Positions 1,477 through 57,349 of a stretch of DNA of 64,000 nt are shown here, one piece after another (the first letter of the stretch is position 1; each line of letters begins with the position of its first letter). The translations under genes were made by a program, and so were the position numbers. The notes beneath the pieces are model-generated. The model searched no databases. It had not been told where the DNA came from and saw only the letters and a list, made by a program, of their open reading frames with translations. Origin of the DNA: an uncultured Candidatus Entotheonella sp. (GTDB taxonomy: Bacteria; Tectomicrobia; Entotheonellia; Entotheonellales; Entotheonellaceae); assembly GCA_951828535.1 (NCBI GenBank), contig OX639990.1, forward strand, positions 2,839,300 to 2,903,299, written 5' to 3'.

Positions 1477-2877
1477 TCACGCGAAAACGGCGGTGGGAGT
1501 CCCGACACCGAGATATTGCGAGACCTCCTGCTGAATGAACTGGCTGAGTTCGACATCGCTGAGGCGGCCGAAGGCCTGTTCCAGGTTGGCCAGGGGGATG
1601 ACGGCTTTGGCCATGGAGCGGTGGCCGCCGGCGCTGCCGAGGCGCCCAAAGGCGTGGCGTACCAATTCACCGGCGTTTTTGACGTTTTCCACGTTGCGAA
1701 CCGAGACGATTAGATTGCCGCCGAAAATACCCGACACCACCGACCACTCCACCCCGCCCACGTGCAAGCAAAACTCGGCAAACTGCGGCAGAACGTCCTC
1801 GCGTTCGACAATGCCGAGGTGCGTGAAAAAGACAGGGCCGATGACCGTGCGGCTGCGCAGCGCATAGGCGAAGGCATCGACATCGCGCAGCGGCAATTTG
1901 GGACGCTGCATGCGGCGAATGAGCGCGTGATTGGCAAGCGGATACAGGTGGGCGAATGCCTCGATATCGGCTTTGGTAGTTTCGCGTCCGAGAAAGAGGG
2001 TGTCGGTCTTGATACCGTAATACAAGGCTGTAGCCAAACGCTGGGTAATCTTGGCCTCGACCGCCTGCAGGTAGCGCACGAAGATGGTGGCGGTGGCGCC
2101 AAAGGCCGCTCGCACGTCGCGATAACGGGTGGCGTAGTTGCCCACGCACGGGTGGTGATCAATCACCGCGTCAACCCGCGGCAGCGCAATGTCGCCAAAG
2201 TAAGGCGGCTGCACGTCCACCATGGCAATGGCGTCGTACTTGCTGAGCGATTTGGCGGTGACGTGCTCAATCTTGACGTCGAGCAACTGCACCATGGCGA
2301 CGTTTTCGGGCCGCGTCACCTTACCAAAGGAGCCAATAGCGGCGGTCTTGCGGTTGCGTCCGAGAAGGCTGCGCAGGGCCATGGCGCTGGCGATGGCATC
2401 GGGGTCCGGGTCATGCTGAATGAGAATCAGCAGGTTGTCAGCCTCGCACAGGACTTCCCGCAAGTGTTGTACGTTTTGGTGCTCACGGGCGTGCCGCAGT
2501 TTGAGTTGGGAGTCTTGGCAGAGGAGGCGTCCGACCGAGATGTGCTTGACGCTGGGGGGCAGGGTGGGGGAGGCGCCGTTGGCCGTGACCACGGCCACCG
2601 ACGGGGGTTTGGCAATGCGGTATAAATTGTCGACAATGTCCCCCATCAACGCCTCGTCCTGCACCTGCACGAGAATTTGATCGTCCTGCCCGATGTGGGC
2701 GTTTTTATAAACGCTCGGATCGCGAAAATCGCCACACAGCACGTCGTATCCCGCCTCGGCAAGGCGGTCTTTGAAAGCGTTGTCATCCACCACGTAAAGC
2801 ACCGTATCGTCGTCTGAAAACGCAAGGCATCCCTGCGCCAGAAACATCTGCTCCTGACAAAATATCACGCGACGCAT
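1477..2877 (-). CDS. TrkA-N-like / DHH-family phosphoesterase
   Basis: About 466 residues, starting at the ATG at 2877 (MRRVIFCQEQ); the frame stays open upstream but without recognisable protein. Residues 1-90 look like a TrkA-N/RCK nucleotide-binding domain (VLYVVDDNAF, DVLCGDFRDPSVYKNA). The rest is a DHH phosphoesterase: QHDPDPDAIASAMAL is motif I, AMVDVQPP motif II and VIDHHPC the DHH metal motif, and the C-terminal Gly-rich SAGGHRSMAKAV is the DHHA1 substrate site. DHH proteins of this type (NrnA-like) degrade nanoRNA, pAp or cyclic dinucleotides; the substrate cannot be told from sequence. The fused N-terminal domain suggests ligand-controlled activity. It is convergent with the preceding gene (13 bp gap). 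Confidence 0.8.
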   Translation of the reverse strand: MRRVIFCQEQMFLAQGCLAFSDDDTVLYVVDDNAFKDRLAEAGYDVLCGDFRDPSVYKNAHIGQDDQILVQVQDEALMGDIVDNLYRIAKPPSVAVVTANGASPTLPPSVKHISVGRLLCQDSQLKLRHAREHQNVQHLREVLCEADNLLILIQHDPDPDAIASAMALRSLLGRNRKTAAIGSFGKVTRPENVAMVQLLDVKIEHVTAKSLSKYDAIAMVDVQPPYFGDIALPRVDAVIDHHPCVGNYATRYRDVRAAFGATATIFVRYLQAVEAKITQRLATALYYGIKTDTLFLGRETTKADIEAFAHLYPLANHALIRRMQRPKLPLRDVDAFAYALRSRTVIGPVFFTHLGIVEREDVLPQFAEFCLHVGGVEWSVVSGIFGGNLIVSVRNVENVKNAGELVRHAFGRLGSAGGHRSMAKAVIPLANLEQAFGRLSDVELSQFIQQEVSQYLGVGTPTAVFA

Positions 2878-3449
2878 GTCTATGATTTTCCTATCCCTGA
2901 AGGAATCAGAGCGCTGTTTGGAGGTCCAGCGGAAACCGCGATTTCGGAATGATGGGCGCAGAGCATAGCAAAAGGATTGGCGTTCGTCGAGGGACCGGAT
3001 CACTCCCCTGCTAAACATTGGCTGAGGGCTATTTCGGCAATGAACCGTGAGAATGATTGCCCTGCGTCTGAACTGTCTTCGTTAGCAACCCTGAATTCAA
3101 GTTCAGAACATATCTTGGCAAGCGCTGCATGGCTCTTAAGCGTCTTGTGATAGGTCGCCACGTCCCACCTTTTGGTAGATTGCGGCGATACGTTCTCTAT
3201 CCCCATCGGGGTCGCTGCAACCCAGGTGCGCAAAGCCGCTGCTGCCGTCTCCGTGTCAAGTACGGAGCAGGACGGCACGTTCCGTTCGCGGTTTCACTCG
3301 GTAAATTTCCTTGTCCACAAATCAGAAACGGTTAGCGTCCGCACCGATTCTCTGTTATAAAATCGCGGTCTTGGTGTGACAACATGCTGCGAACGTCCTG
3401 GACGGGACGTTGCCTACCTTGGATAGGCCCTTTGTGAGGAGGCACAAGC
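2878..3449. other. Intergenic region without a convincing gene
   Basis: About 570 bp separate the DHH gene from the small peptide gene. The only open frame of note is a 92-codon minus-strand frame (3000-3278) with a GTG start, no good ribosome site and no recognisable family. It is not called. TTATAAAAT around 3353-3361 could be a -10 for the peptide gene, but no matching -35 is evident. Confidence 0.4.
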
Positions 3450-31213: not shown

Positions 31214-31600
31214 CTATTCGTTCGTCGGCGGCGTGTAGGGCGGCATGGCCAGCGTGCGTACGAAAGCGACCAAGTCCTGGATTTGCTGCGCCGACAGAAT
31301 GGCCTTCCAGGGCGGCATGATGGGCGATAGACCCACCGATGCGCCGCCGTCGCCGATGACCTTCAAGAGGTGGGCGTCGCTCAGGGCGTTCATGTAGGCG
31401 CCGTCGGTGTGGTTGCGCGGCTTGGGGTCCAGGTTGGCCGACAGGGAGCCGTCGCCCTTGCCTTGCGGACCGTGGCACAGGGCGCAGTATTGCACATAGT
31501 TTTCTTGGCCGGCCTTGGCGTCCTGAGCCTGGCCGGTGGACGGCCACAATAGCAGGCAGGCGAGGGCCAGAGCGGAGAGGCACGGGAGCGATTTCAGCAT
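31214..31600 (-). CDS. Periplasmic c-type cytochrome
   Basis: 128 residues from the ATG at 31600 (GAGGAGA site). A signal peptide (residues 1-26, ending GQAQD) precedes one class I haem site CALCH (about residues 39-43) within GQENYVQYCALCHGPQGKGD. The distal ligand is probably Met in SPIMPPWKAILSAQQIQDLV, which matches the cytochrome c555/cbb3-subunit-like fold. It is an electron carrier between complex III and an oxidase or a dehydrogenase. It lies 35 bp after the Cox11-like gene, in the same operon. Confidence 0.85.
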   Translation of the reverse strand: MLKSLPCLSALALACLLLWPSTGQAQDAKAGQENYVQYCALCHGPQGKGDGSLSANLDPKPRNHTDGAYMNALSDAHLLKVIGDGGASVGLSPIMPPWKAILSAQQIQDLVAFVRTLAMPPYTPPTNE

Positions 31601-31635
31601 GGAATTCTCCTCAGGCGACAGGGGTGGGCAATGGG

Positions 31636-32610
31636 TCACTTGCTAGGTTCAACGGGGAACGCCTCGAGCGGGAAGAACTCGTAGCGCACGTGTAGCTCGG
31701 TGATGGTGTCCGGCGTTTCGTAGCTGGGTCGAAAGACGACGGGAAACTGTTTCTCCTCACCGGGCGCCAAAGTTTGTTGCAGGTAACAGAAGCAGTAAAT
31801 GATGTCGAGGTAGTCGGCGTGCTCCGGGGTCACGAAGACGTGTCGGGCCTTGCCTGTGAGAGGCGTGTCGGCAAGGTTTTTGACCCGGAAGTAGGTCTGC
31901 AGGGTTTCGCCGGGCATGACGCGCAGGGTCGGCTGCAGCGGTGCGAACGACCACGGCAGACCGGCCAGCGTCTGCGCCTCGAAATGAATCTCGAGGGCCG
32001 CGGTCCAGCCCAGCACGACACGCCATTCGCCGTGTTCGCGGACCAGGGTCCAGGTTTCTTTGTCGCCGATAATAAGGGGTAGTTCGTTGGCGGTGGCAAG
32101 TTGCCGCAGTTGCCTGCCTCGAGCGGCGCGCTCGCCGGCGGGAAGCGCCTTGAGGCCCTGTTGATCAAAGCCAAGCAGGAGGGTGCGCAGGGCCGGGTCA
32201 TGGGTGTCCGGCACGATGGCCCTGAAGGTGACGCTGGCGTCGTCCTGCCCCTTGACGTTGATGCCGCTGTATTCGAAGCGGATGAACGCCGCCAGCAGGC
32301 TGGTGAGATCGAGCGCAGCGCCGGAGAAGGCGCCGTTTTCCTTCAAGTAGTCGCGTTTGGATTTCAATTCGCGGTCGGCTTGTGCAATCAGCTCGTAGGC
32401 CGTGCCGAAGTCGCGGGCGTAGATGGCCCGGAGATAGGCTTCGAGCGTTTCCTCTGGGGGCTGGGCGGCAAATGCAGCGCTGGCTGTTGCCGGGATAGCG
32501 AACAGCAACCAAGCCGCCAGGAGGGCGGCCAGGGGTTGCAGGGCGAGGTGGGCACGAGGCAGCCAGGCTGGTTTCGTGCAGGTATGAGGGCTTCCGGGGT
32601 CTGGTCGCAT
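31636..32610 (-). CDS. NTF2-like domain fused to a Cox11/CtaG-like copper domain
   Basis: 324 residues. Residues 22-45 (PLAALLAAWLLFAIPATASA) are a signal or membrane anchor. Residues 50-165 (PPEETLEAYLRAIYARDFGT, GINVKGQDDASVTFRAIVPD) look like an NTF2/SnoaL-type fold. Residues 205-320 match Cox11/CtaG: LPWSFAPLQPTLRVMPGETL, then DIIYCFCYLQQTLAPGEEKQ, with the CFC copper motif and the following T-L-x-P-G-E, and PVVFRPSYETPD. Cox11 inserts Cu(B) into haem-copper oxidases. The family itself is about 190 residues with no such N-terminal domain. Adjacent to two cytochrome c genes, it suggests copper handling for an electron-transfer protein. Confidence 0.75.
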   Translation of the reverse strand: MRPDPGSPHTCTKPAWLPRAHLALQPLAALLAAWLLFAIPATASAAFAAQPPEETLEAYLRAIYARDFGTAYELIAQADRELKSKRDYLKENGAFSGAALDLTSLLAAFIRFEYSGINVKGQDDASVTFRAIVPDTHDPALRTLLLGFDQQGLKALPAGERAARGRQLRQLATANELPLIIGDKETWTLVREHGEWRVVLGWTAALEIHFEAQTLAGLPWSFAPLQPTLRVMPGETLQTYFRVKNLADTPLTGKARHVFVTPEHADYLDIIYCFCYLQQTLAPGEEKQFPVVFRPSYETPDTITELHVRYEFFPLEAFPVEPSK

Positions 32611-32697: not shown

Positions 32698-33633
32698 TTA
32701 GTTGCCGGCCGCGCAGGGGTTGCACGGATTGCACGGATTCGCCGCCGCACACGGGTTGCAGGGGTTGCACGGGTTCGCCGCGGCGCACGGATTGCAGGGG
32801 TTACAGGGATTGCACGGATTTGCCGCCGCGCAGGGGTTACACGGATTGCATGGGTTGGCCTGCGCCATCTGGATAAAATCTTTCTGCACCTCGGCGCCAT
32901 AGGCGGTCAGCGCCGCCAGTTCCGGCGAATCCCAGGGCAGCGCCTCGGCGGCCATGGGCGCCAGCATGCAGAACTGCACCATCTCGTCCAGTGTCACTTT
33001 CTCCACCCCGGACATCCGATGGGGCATCTTCACCTGGTGCGGATAGGGCTTGGCAAAAGTGTCGGCGAAATTGCCGTTGTTCAGGTGGCACACGCCGCAC
33101 GCCAGACCGTTGGTGCTCAGGCCGCGGTCGTTCCACAACGCCTGCCCCATCTTCAGCAAATCTCCGTGGCTCAACCCGGCATGCAGGCTGGTCCCAGCTG
33201 GCCGCATGACCTTCTTGGGATCGATCTTTGCGCCGGCTCCGCAGGGATTACAGGGATTCGCTGCCGCACAGGGGTTGCACGGGTTTGCCGCTGCGCATGG
33301 ATTGCAAGGGTTGCACGGGTTTACTGCCGCACACGGGTTGCAGGGATTGCAAGGGTTGCACGGGTTCGCTGCCGCGCACGGATTGCAGGGATTGCAAGGG
33401 TTGCACGGATTCGCTGCCGTACGCGGGTTACATGGGTTACAGGGATTACACGGGTTTTCCGCCGCGCATGGATTTGCCGCCCCCGACGCCCTCATGGCAA
33501 TTACCGTTTCCTGACCGGTATCCATGTTTTGCTCTGTGTCGGACCACGAAACGGTTGCGAACACCAGCGCAACGAACACGACTCCCATCAGTGCCGGAAA
33601 CCGCAGTGACTTTCCGGAAAATACGGATTTCAT
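32698..33633 (-). CDS. Cytochrome c domain flanked by Asn-Pro-Cys repeat tracts
   Basis: 311 residues from the ATG at 33633 with a perfect GGAGGAGA site. Residues 10-32 are a signal anchor. Residues 54-131 carry 19 NPC units and one NPR (69-71) in groups of one to four, separated by AAE, TAA, AAA or AAV. Residues 135-255 are a class I cytochrome c with CGVCH (179-183) and possible distal Met in VKMPHRMSG. Residues 260-307 carry 13 more NPC units (3, 4, 3, 3). In all there are 35 Cys. The tracts could bind copper or other thiophilic metals or form disulfide nets. Located upstream of the Cox11-like gene, it may be an electron/metal transfer protein; this is inference. Confidence 0.8.
32713..32856 (-). 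repeat. Repeated 9-bp units encoding the second NPC tract
   Basis: Tandem 9-bp units (AAYCCNTGY on the coding strand) encode 13 NPC repeats interrupted by GCN-GCN-GCN spacers. Third-position variation shows the units are not identical, so selection appears to maintain the peptide. Confidence 0.85.
33241..33474 (-). repeat. Repeated 9-bp units encoding the first NPC tract
   Basis: Tandem units encode 19 NPC and one NPR. The NPR (CGC or CGT for TGC or TGT) is a single-base change in an otherwise regular tract. Confidence 0.85.
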
Positions 33634-34115: not shown

Positions 34116-37103
<2,988 letters not shown>

Positions 37104-37155
37104 GATGTTCCTTATGTGTCGTGAGAGATCGTGTCGGGCAGGCTTCTCAAGGTCA

Positions 37156-37800
37156 TCACAACCACTGCACCGCGCCCTTGTCAATCAATTCCCGCCAAAC
37201 GTCGTCCGGCGTCTTGCTGAACACCGTGTCGGCGTCGGCGGGCAAGACGTGCCAGTCGCCGCGCGCCACCTCATGGTCGAGCTGCCCCGGCGCCCATCCC
37301 GCGTAGCCGGCGTAAACGTGCACGGAGGCTGCGGAGCCCGCTCTGCCGAGCGCGTCAAAGAGCACCCGGCGGCTAGTGCTGACGTAGATGTTATCGACGA
37401 CGTGCTTGGTACCGGCGCGTGGCTTGTCGGCGCGCAGGAGCATCAGCAAGCGGGTGCGCTCCACCGGCCCACCGAGATATACGGTATCCGAGCGTCGCCG
37501 CAATCCCCTGATTTCGGGAAACATGGTGACCAGTTTCACGTCGGTCGACCAGTTGATGATCACACCCCGTGCGCCGCGCTCGCCATAGTTGAGCAAGAGG
37601 ACGACGGTCCTGGCAAAATTGGGGTCCCGGAGTTGTTTGCTGGCGACGAGAAATCTACCCGTTGCCAGGGCCGCCTGGGGCGCCGTCTGCGGCATGACGG
37701 CGGACAGGGACAGCAACAAGAGAACGAATCCCGCGACGGCAAGGGTTACCGACGCCTTTAACTGGTATCTCCGGGTATGCACAGCAGCGCGCCACGTCAT
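37156..37800 (-). CDS. AlgH/UPF0301 (YqgE)-like protein with N-terminal membrane anchor
   Basis: 214 residues from the ATG at 37800 (GAGGA site). Residues 16-40 ([20 protein letters not shown]) are hydrophobic, then the YqgE fold: [55 protein letters not shown] and [17 protein letters not shown], then [14 protein letters not shown]. Ordinary AlgH proteins are cytoplasmic and start directly at the LxxSFLIA.p...dp.F..TVV motif, so a membrane or exported form is unusual. The function of the family is unknown. It reads towards glyQS (52 bp). Confidence 0.8.
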
Positions 37801-55522: not shown

Positions 55523-57349
55523 TCACCTGTCTTCAAGCTGAAATTTAATGGGCAACTCCATGGGGATTTGGTTCCGCCGAATTTCGGGCGGAAAGGGCGG
55601 AAGTTGACCGACTCGCCTCAGGGCCCGCAGGGCGGCAGCACGAAACAACCTGTGGGTGAACTCGACATCATCCGGGTCGATGATCACCTCCCCGTCCCGG
55701 CGTACGGTGAAGTTCAGGACGACCCGGCCGCTCCTCCCGATGCGTTCAGTAACCTCCTGCAGGTAAGGGCTATGCTCTTCCAGACGTTGCTGAACCAATG
55801 CCTTGTAGTGTTCGAACGCGTCCTGTTCGGCTTGTTCTTGCGCGGCCTGGAGTTGTTCCCGCTCGGCTTGCAGGACCGCCGCCGGGGAGGGTTGACGCGG
55901 TTGCGACAGGGCCGCCACACGAATCGGCACGGGCGACACGGTTTGCGGCACGGCGGCGGCCACGCGGCTCGACGCCCGCCTGCCGGTCGGCTGGGTAGCG
56001 GTTTGCGATCGCGACGTCCTCGCGGCGCGCTGCCGCGGGACCGGTTTGACGACCACCGGCTGCGGTGGCGGCACGACCGGCGTAATGTCAGGGCGCGGCT
56101 GGTGCGCCTGCGCGACAACGTGTCCGCGCCGCGAAATCGCGCGGCGCTTTCGCTGTTCCTGCGGCTTGGGAATGACGGGCTGCACCGCGGCCGGCGTCAC
56201 CTGCGGGTTGACGACGTGCTCGGTCGGTGTTTCCACCCGCTGCCGCTGCCGTGCGGCAACGCGCTGTTGCACGTCCGGCGGTTTTGGCACGACGGGCTGC
56301 ACCGCGGCCGGCGCCACCTGCGGCTTGACGGCATGCTCGGTTGGCGATTCCACCCGCCGGCGCGTCTGCGCGGCAATGCGCTGTTGTACGTCCGGCGGCT
56401 TTGGCGCGACGGGTTGCACCACCGGCGTCGGCGCCACCTGCGGCTTGACGATTTGCTCAGTCGGCGTTTCCACCCGCTGCCGCGCCCGTGCGGCCACCCG
56501 CTGTTGCACGTCCGGCGGTTTTGGCACGACGGGCTGCACCACCGGGAGCGGCGTCACTTGCGGTTTCACGATCTGCTCGGTCGGCGTTTCCACCCGCTGC
56601 CGCGCCCGTGCGGCCACCCGCTGTTGCACGTCCGGCGGCTTCGGTACCACGGGCTGCACCACCGGAAGCGGCGCCACTTGCGGCTTGACGACATGCTCGG
56701 TTGGCGATTCCACCCGCCGGCGCGTCTGTGCGGCAACGCGCTGTTGCACGTCTGGCGGTTTTGGCACGACGGGCTGCACCGCGGCCGGTGCCACCTGCGA
56801 CTTGACGGCATGCTCGGTTGGCGATTCCACCCGCCGGCGCGTCTGTGCGGCAACGCGCTGTTGCACGTCCGGCGGCTTTGGCACGACGGGCTGCACGACG
56901 GCCGGCGCCACTTGCGGCTTGACGACATGCTCGGGCTGCGTTTCCACCCGCTGCCGCGGTTGCGACGCGGTGCGCTGTTGCACGTCTGGGGGCTTGGGCA
57001 CCACGGGCTGCACCGGAGCCGGCGCCGACGGCGGCTCGTCGGCGCGTTCGGGTTGCGTTTCGACCCGTTCAATCGGCTTGGGGGTCTGCAGGTCCGCCAC
57101 CGGTTCAATCGGCGCCGGTTCGATGGGGACCGGCTCGGCCACCGCAACCTGTGTCAACACGGGAACCGACGTCGGCACCGGCTTGGCGAAACGCACCACG
57201 TAGCGCGTCAGGCCAAAAATGTCGGGCGGGCGGCTAAACCAGGGCAGGTTCGGCAGGCCTGTAATGAACAGCCCGTGCAGCAGAACCGAAAATCCAATCA
57301 TCACAAACAGCGGCAGCCGACCGGCGTCGGTCTTGGGCTGACCCCTCAC
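55523..57349 (-). CDS. tonB: TonB energy transducer with expanded Pro-rich repeats
   Basis: 608 residues (a typical TonB is about 240) with a GTG start that overlaps the exb remnant (GTGA). The N-terminal anchor (residues 12-35, LPLFVMIGFSVLLHGLFITG) carries the His of the S-x-x-x-H motif. Residues 114-390 are seven tandem units of 39-40 residues (core QPVVPKPPDVQQR), a long rigid spacer. The C-terminal domain (510-608) has GRSGRVVLNFTVRRDGEVII and ALRRVGQLPPFPPEI, which bind TonB boxes. It is upstream of the Ca-repeat and haem-oxygenase genes, but its own ExbB/ExbD genes are broken, so it must use those of the other cluster. Confidence 0.88.
   Translation of the reverse strand: MRGQPKTDAGRLPLFVMIGFSVLLHGLFITGLPNLPWFSRPPDIFGLTRYVVRFAKPVPTSVPVLTQVAVAEPVPIEPAPIEPVADLQTPKPIERVETQPERADEPPSAPAPVQPVVPKPPDVQQRTASQPRQRVETQPEHVVKPQVAPAVVQPVVPKPPDVQQRVAAQTRRRVESPTEHAVKSQVAPAAVQPVVPKPPDVQQRVAAQTRRRVESPTEHVVKPQVAPLPVVQPVVPKPPDVQQRVAARARQRVETPTEQIVKPQVTPLPVVQPVVPKPPDVQQRVAARARQRVETPTEQIVKPQVAPTPVVQPVAPKPPDVQQRIAAQTRRRVESPTEHAVKPQVAPAAVQPVVPKPPDVQQRVAARQRQRVETPTEHVVNPQVTPAAVQPVIPKPQEQRKRRAISRRGHVVAQAHQPRPDITPVVPPPQPVVVKPVPRQRAARTSRSQTATQPTGRRASSRVAAAVPQTVSPVPIRVAALSQPRQPSPAAVLQAEREQLQAAQEQAEQDAFEHYKALVQQRLEEHSPYLQEVTERIGRSGRVVLNFTVRRDGEVIIDPDDVEFTHRLFRAAALRALRRVGQLPPFPPEIRRNQIPMELPIKFQLEDR
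56182..57010 (-). repeat. Tandem about 118-bp repeats within tonB
   Basis: Seven units of 117-120 bp plus a partial eighth encode 39-40-residue Pro-rich repeats. Units 2, 3, 6 (RRRVESPTE type) and 4, 5 (RQRVETPTEQI type) differ in a pattern that suggests successive duplication and exchange. The other TonB protein of the window (60312-61103) has about one such unit. Confidence 0.85.

Follow-up and report, generated by a model that had tools for sequence, protein, structure and literature searches.

An unnamed family of bacterial haem proteins with Asn-Pro-Cys repeat arms and a possible new thiol-redox system of the periplasm

The window analysed here is a stretch of 64,000 nucleotides from an uncultured Candidatus Entotheonella, whose genome (the host genome) is a single contig of 3.6 Mb. 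The reverse strand carries a gene, with an ATG start and GGAGGAG upstream, for a protein in which a haem c domain lies between two arms of Asn-Pro-Cys (NPC) units. We refer to this protein as the NPC cytochrome. The features of the gene and of the two genes downstream are as follows.

31214 to 31639, minus strand: single-haem cytochrome c, possible electron partner (PF13442, E 6e-12; PF00034, E 4e-10)
31636 to 32610, minus strand: Cox11/CtaG-domain protein, extended at the N-terminus and keeping the CFC motif (PF04442, E 2e-23)
32698 to 33633, minus strand: NPC-cytochrome coding sequence, 311 residues (open reading frame call; 83% identity over the haem domain to the same-genus ortholog, L004/L043)
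32713 to 32856, minus strand: C-terminal NPC arm, residues 260-307, 13 NPC (unit count)
32863 to 33237, minus strand: SoxA/TsdA-type haem c domain, residues 133-257 (PF21342, AlphaFold, structure comparison)
32953 to 32970, minus strand: CMLAPM, residues 222-227, with Cys222 the probable sixth haem ligand (Cys, Met and Pro unchanged across all 80 domains; alignment with the SoxA Cys)
33085 to 33099, minus strand: CGVCH site for haem attachment, residues 179-183 (CxxCH present in all 80 domains)
33241 to 33474, minus strand: N-terminal NPC arm, residues 54-131, 19 NPC and one NPR (unit count)
33421 to 33429, minus strand: the single NPR unit, residues 69-71, Cys to Arg by TGT to CGT (unit count)
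33538 to 33633, minus strand: N-terminal export signal or anchor, residues 1-32 (sequence reading)

Elsewhere in the window, the alpha and beta chains of glycyl-tRNA synthetase are fused in one ORF of 1022 residues (34116-37184), and a 117-bp tandem repeat runs for 7.4 copies with 84% matches (56157-57026).

An earlier note on this DNA had described 19 and 13 NPC units on either side of CGVCH, 35 Cys in 311 residues and one unit changed to NPR, and our counts agree on every point. The 35 Cys consist of 32 from the NPC units, two from the haem motif and Cys222. When the residues of the protein were shuffled 20,000 times, NPC occurred 0.6 times on average and at most five times, against 32 in the real protein. 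The 33 tract units (NPC and NPR) are written in 13 DNA spellings, and compared pairwise they differ by 859 synonymous and 32 nonsynonymous changes (per-site ratio about 0.009), all 32 of the latter arising from the NPR unit. Since the spelling variation among units is almost wholly silent, the tract is selected as protein and is no recent expansion of the DNA. This codon evidence, together with the conservation described below, ruled out a low-complexity artefact.

Residues 1-32 begin with a basic segment followed by a hydrophobic run; there is no clear AxA site in the host protein, and clear AxA sites are found in its relatives. Attachment of haem c requires export. Both the hydrophobic segment and the haem site thus agree with the host protein and its arms being exported, as the earlier note had proposed from a signal peptide. 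Its statement that the protein belongs to no named family is also upheld in that neither Pfam nor NCBIfam holds a model spanning the NPC tract or the whole protein.

The haem domain had been taken for a class I cytochrome. The single CGVCH site stands, but the class does not. The best Pfam match of the host domain is PF21342 (SoxA/TsdA; E 4e-6, 27.2 bits against a cut-off of 27), and the relative L009 scores 49.2 bits with the same model. SoxA ranked first in a PDB profile search with the smaller profile and was among several haem proteins in one with the larger alignment. An AlphaFold model of the domain (pLDDT 92, pTM 0.85) gave no Foldseek match below E 0.001, the best among those listed being SoxA and TsdA. 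With VIA-align, SoxA (1h31_A) gave a Z value of 8.7 (87 residues, rmsd 2.5), TsdA about 7 and MauG and peroxidases about 5. These Z values are moderate, yet sequence and structure agree on the family, and we conclude that the domain is of the SoxA/TsdA type rather than a typical class I cytochrome c. The protein scores 18.6 bits with the SoxA equivalog TIGR04484, below the threshold of 110, and with its single CxxCH it lacks the second haem domain of TsdA.

Across 80 domains of the family, the invariant positions include CxxCH, the His and Met of PHxVxM, and the Cys, Met and Pro of CMxxPM. The CMxxPM Cys (Cys222 in the host) aligns with the SoxA Cys, and judging from this pattern the haem iron is probably held by His183 and Cys222. 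In TsdA, the corresponding Cys123 is a haem ligand that carries a thiosulfonate intermediate, aided by Arg109, Arg119 and Ser127, and the SoxA/TsdA family forms S-S bonds through this Cys (PMC4423706). The active-site Arg (C-4) and Ser (C+4) of TsdA are absent from the 80 domains, which, by offset from the Cys, have an invariant Met and Pro instead; the N-terminal haem domain of SoxA also has Met at C-4. Without TsdA-type Arg and Ser around the Cys, the known thiosulfate reaction is unlikely, and the haem is likely to be a His/Cys electron-transfer site or an altered sulfur site. The likeness to SoxA and TsdA lies in the fold, in CxxCH with a Cys at the axial-ligand position, and in the Sox-like neighbours of NPC relatives (see below), whereas the single haem, the invariant CMxxPM and the polythiol arms on both sides set the NPC cytochrome apart. 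The host encodes a second SoxA-like single-haem protein that has no NPC units (L018:1219-1797; G000:C1 2817240-2817491), a member of a tract-less outgroup family.

The spread of the architecture was examined by searching with the haem domain, the arms omitted, which revealed relatives in 13 of 145 genomes; strong relatives from other families in this search had NPC units too. A single conserved peptide pattern, scanned against 84,980 GTDB species genomes, then gave 315 relatives, a lower bound, of which the best 80 were analysed. The earlier note had reasoned that its proposal would weaken if relatives with the same domain lacked the tract. On the contrary, NPC units lie on both sides of the domain in 69 of these 80. 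The others are two proteins cut at contig ends, four of Pseudomonadales type with GPC or APC, and five without a tract, which keep three Cys (four in one case) including the two haem Cys and the CMxxPM Cys. The number of repeats ranges from 2 to 27, and the relatives come from at least six phyla (Pseudomonadota, Tectimicrobiota, Nitrospinota, Methylomirabilota, Rokubacteria and Myxococcota). In the same-genus ortholog (genome G001) the arms have 11 and 7 units, and the downstream genes are of the same kind and in the same order. The family is uncommon: among 274 genomes of the class to which one Gallionellales member belongs, 7 have it, each time with NPC arms.

When 97 domains were placed on a tree, the NPC label required 6 changes, against 16 when labels are shuffled. 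Tract-bearing proteins extend down to the base of the clade, and tract-less proteins are nested inside it. With a short alignment of 108 columns many forks stay unresolved, so that the broad pattern alone was used; it places the NPC tract close to the root of this clade, with a few later losses.

Several variants of the tract were noted. In the Pseudomonadales-type proteins (L112, L114, L119 and L086), replacement of NPC by GPC or APC gives runs of CGPC, the thioredoxin active-site motif. Marinobacter daqiaonensis (L117:7683-8342) has a Cys-free Glu/Gly/Ala repeat (EGEAEGEGEG) in place of the tract. An exported protein of genome G249, ComEA-like with a helix-hairpin-helix as judged by eye, ends in four NPC units (L176 / L202:3526-4029), so that NPC arms are not confined to the cytochrome. 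A plasmid search gave one match, to the haem domain only, on a Cupriavidus plasmid whose record is unannotated at that point.

The host genome encodes a second NPC protein, a peptide of 54 residues with an export signal and five NPC units, which is also present in G001. An NPC peptide lies within the fetched stretch at 20 of the 80 loci. The residues flanking the NPC units are more alike between peptide and cytochrome of the same genome (cosine 0.64) than in mismatched pairs (0.37; permutation p 5e-5, n = 23), a likeness to which shared ancestry contributes in part. The pattern NPCAAKNPC is absent from all five genomes with a tract-less cytochrome, a small sample that includes three close relatives. 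NPC peptides were also found in four genomes in which no NPC cytochrome was detected (G309, G413, G319 and G429). The host peptide lies just 3' of a Slam-type outer-membrane gene (PF04575) on the same strand (L002:1480-1722 and 1756-3051; G000:C1 near 3,349,130), and in G001 a Slam-like ORF is found about 6 kb from the peptide. A search of an open-access library found no paper on NPC repeats in cytochromes and none describing the family. By Pfam, NCBIfam and this literature, the architecture, the peptide partner and their spread appear undescribed, while the domain fold itself is known.

We then considered the genes within about 8 kb of the 80 loci. The most frequent families were DUF6969 (34 loci), a pentahaem cytochrome (27), DUF302 (23) and a PF04143 transporter of the YeeE/YedE type (19), followed by an ECF sigma factor (14), thioredoxin (13), a family of about 150 residues that we call A3 (13) and CcdA (11). 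The transporter matches the YedE/FdhT and TsuA models below cut-off. The pentahaem cytochrome has a remote match to the ExtKL model and is related to the ExtKL/MtrC models. In the distant genome G067, genes for an ECF sigma factor, the NPC cytochrome, the NPC peptide, a pentahaem cytochrome, thioredoxin and CcdA form, in this order, an operon-like row on one strand. Most loci with thioredoxin or CcdA belong to Gallionellaceae, so these cases are not independent. In the host genome DUF6969 was not detected, a YeeE-type gene was not found and no thioredoxin/CcdA pair adjoins the NPC cytochrome. No SoxX, SoxYZ or SoxB is annotated beside the gene in the window or among the listed neighbour families. 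Outside the Entotheonella-type genus, then, the NPC cytochromes have thiol-redox and sulfur-transport genes as neighbours.

Two of the neighbour families have features of their own. In DUF6969 (L053:8529-9227 and relatives) the motifs HAHR and EHGHFHTF are invariant and hint at a metal site; the model of this family (pLDDT 84) has no fold match in the PDB. A3 (L076:10779-11228 and relatives) is an exported family with invariant Cys and, by eye, a cupredoxin-like ending, YSCPLNTTPDY. It has no family match and no match in the host, and a PDB profile search gave nothing convincing.

In Sox systems, SoxV is an orthologue of CcdA, SoxS protects SoxYZ, and SoxT is YedE-like (PMC10451225). As the SoxA-like haem, Cys carriers, thioredoxin, CcdA and YedE-like transporter of the NPC loci mirror this set, we tentatively favour a reading of the NPC cytochrome as a periplasmic polythiol redox system operating on Sox-like logic, and hold it with somewhat less than even confidence. 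The haem ligation, the electron flow, the substrate and every step of the following cycle we infer from the architecture, conservation, fold, peptide partner and neighbours observed above. The SoxA/TsdA-type domain would sit between two flexible polythiol arms, and the arms and the secreted peptide would together provide a periplasmic pool of reactive thiols. These thiols would take up a thiophilic load, which could be sulfane sulfur, a related chalcogen or a disulfide, and the haem would accept electrons as S-S or S-X bonds form. A partner cytochrome could then receive the electrons; in the host this would be the class I cytochrome c, elsewhere the pentahaem cytochrome. Thioredoxin and CcdA would reset the thiols, and the YeeE/YedE-like transporter could import sulfur.

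The resemblance to SoxYZ is one of idea, with no homology seen: in both cases a periplasmic Cys carrier would be serviced by thioredoxin and CcdA, but SoxYZ is a separate protein with one Cys, whereas the NPC cytochrome has up to 32 in arms fused to the haem domain. Against the thiol-redox reading stand the Met and Pro that replace the TsdA Arg and Ser, the gaps in the host gene set (the YeeE-type gene and an adjoining thioredoxin/CcdA pair), the concentration of thioredoxin and CcdA cases in Gallionellaceae, and the five genomes that lost the tract and kept the haem domain. A more specific version, in which a His/Cys haem charges or discharges its own arms and a mobile peptide as multi-site carriers of sulfane sulfur or another chalcogen, with reset by thioredoxin and CcdA, a pentahaem drain, independence of SoxYZ and a presence in at least six phyla, we regard as rather unlikely in this full form. 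The broader theme of thiol chemistry, which the earlier note had raised, is likely to be correct.

The earlier note had also named Cu(I) or another thiophilic metal, with the Cox11-like gene as support for copper. In this alternative the arms and peptide would bind such a metal in the periplasm, and the haem would maintain the redox state of metal or thiols, feeding Cox11 in the host. The downstream gene is a genuine Cox11-domain gene (83.5 bits with PF04442 against a cut-off of 25; 89 bits with the NCBIfam equivalog, below 162) and starts 88 bp downstream on the same strand. Its CFC motif and the resemblance of the CNPC spacing to Cu(I) CxxC sites speak for a metal role. So do genes for MNIO proteins of the bufferin type, whose family chelates copper (PMC12452194): they lie within about 10 kb of the NPC cytochrome at L048, G147, G154 and G156, where a rough estimate for the three loci of the tested set gives about 0.06 expected by chance (10 MNIO genes in 8 genomes). 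In G309, an MNIO gene is preceded at a distance of about 1.2 kb by two tandem NPC peptides, which have a thioredoxin upstream (L200:4913-7794). However, Cox11 adjoins the NPC cytochrome only in the Entotheonella-type genus (the window and L043), outside the conserved NPC system, and therefore backs copper weakly. In both genomes it is the sole Cox11 domain found, so its role may be no more than to serve the oxidase. A scan of 79 operon-like neighbours showed no Cop/Cus-type copper gene in its top families, and MNIO (PF05114) has no match in the host or G001 and is absent from 26 of 36 genomes tested. The commonest spacing, NPCAAKNPC, places a Cys every six residues, which is no usual Cu(I) motif, and metal thiolates need no strict Asn and Pro. 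Bufferins are likewise small, Cys-rich exported peptides, but the survey of them mentions neither NPC repeats nor cytochromes (PMC12452194). We consider a soft-metal buffer somewhat unlikely. MNIO modification as a general mechanism of the tract was ruled out for the host by the same absences.

In a second alternative, disulfides would link arms and peptides into a polymeric layer, in the periplasm or at the surface, to which the cytochrome is anchored as an electron relay. A parallel is CdeC of the Clostridioides difficile exosporium, a Cys-rich protein with a tandem repeat of six NPC and 37 Cys, which self-assembles into partly disulfide-dependent lamellae (PMC7677010). The repeat flanks common to peptide and cytochrome, the ExtKL/MtrC-related pentahaem cytochromes near 27 of the 80 loci, and the Slam-type gene beside the host peptide would also fit such a layer. 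CdeC, however, is a spore-coat protein without haem, and the link, drawn from its published motif description, is a resemblance in a short motif. Thioredoxin and CcdA suggest thiols that are kept reduced rather than locked, and Slam is not directly adjacent in G001. We judge a cross-linked matrix improbable. Both alternatives may overlap with the thiol-redox reading. A functionless tract, expanded neutrally around an electron-transfer cytochrome, could account for the variable unit number and the five tract-less relatives, but is very improbable given the strong purifying selection on each unit, the two-sided tract in 69 of 80 relatives over six phyla, its clustering on the tree and the separate peptide with the same motif.

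The NPC cytochromes are a real, widespread and unnamed family of bacterial proteins. Together with the peptide they make up a conserved array of thiols, on two proteins, around a SoxA/TsdA-type haem, one that no Pfam or NCBIfam model describes, and they suggest an as yet undescribed thiol-redox system in the periplasm. Carriers include the iron oxidisers Gallionella and Sideroxydans, the polyphosphate-accumulating Accumulibacter, the iodate respirer Denitromonas iodatirespirans, and groundwater and sponge-symbiont lineages. As D. iodatirespirans is cultured and carries the NPC system, the proposal is open to experiment. Should the arms prove to carry sulfur or soft metals, they would represent a new way of holding reactive periplasmic cargo, with many sites per electron carrier.
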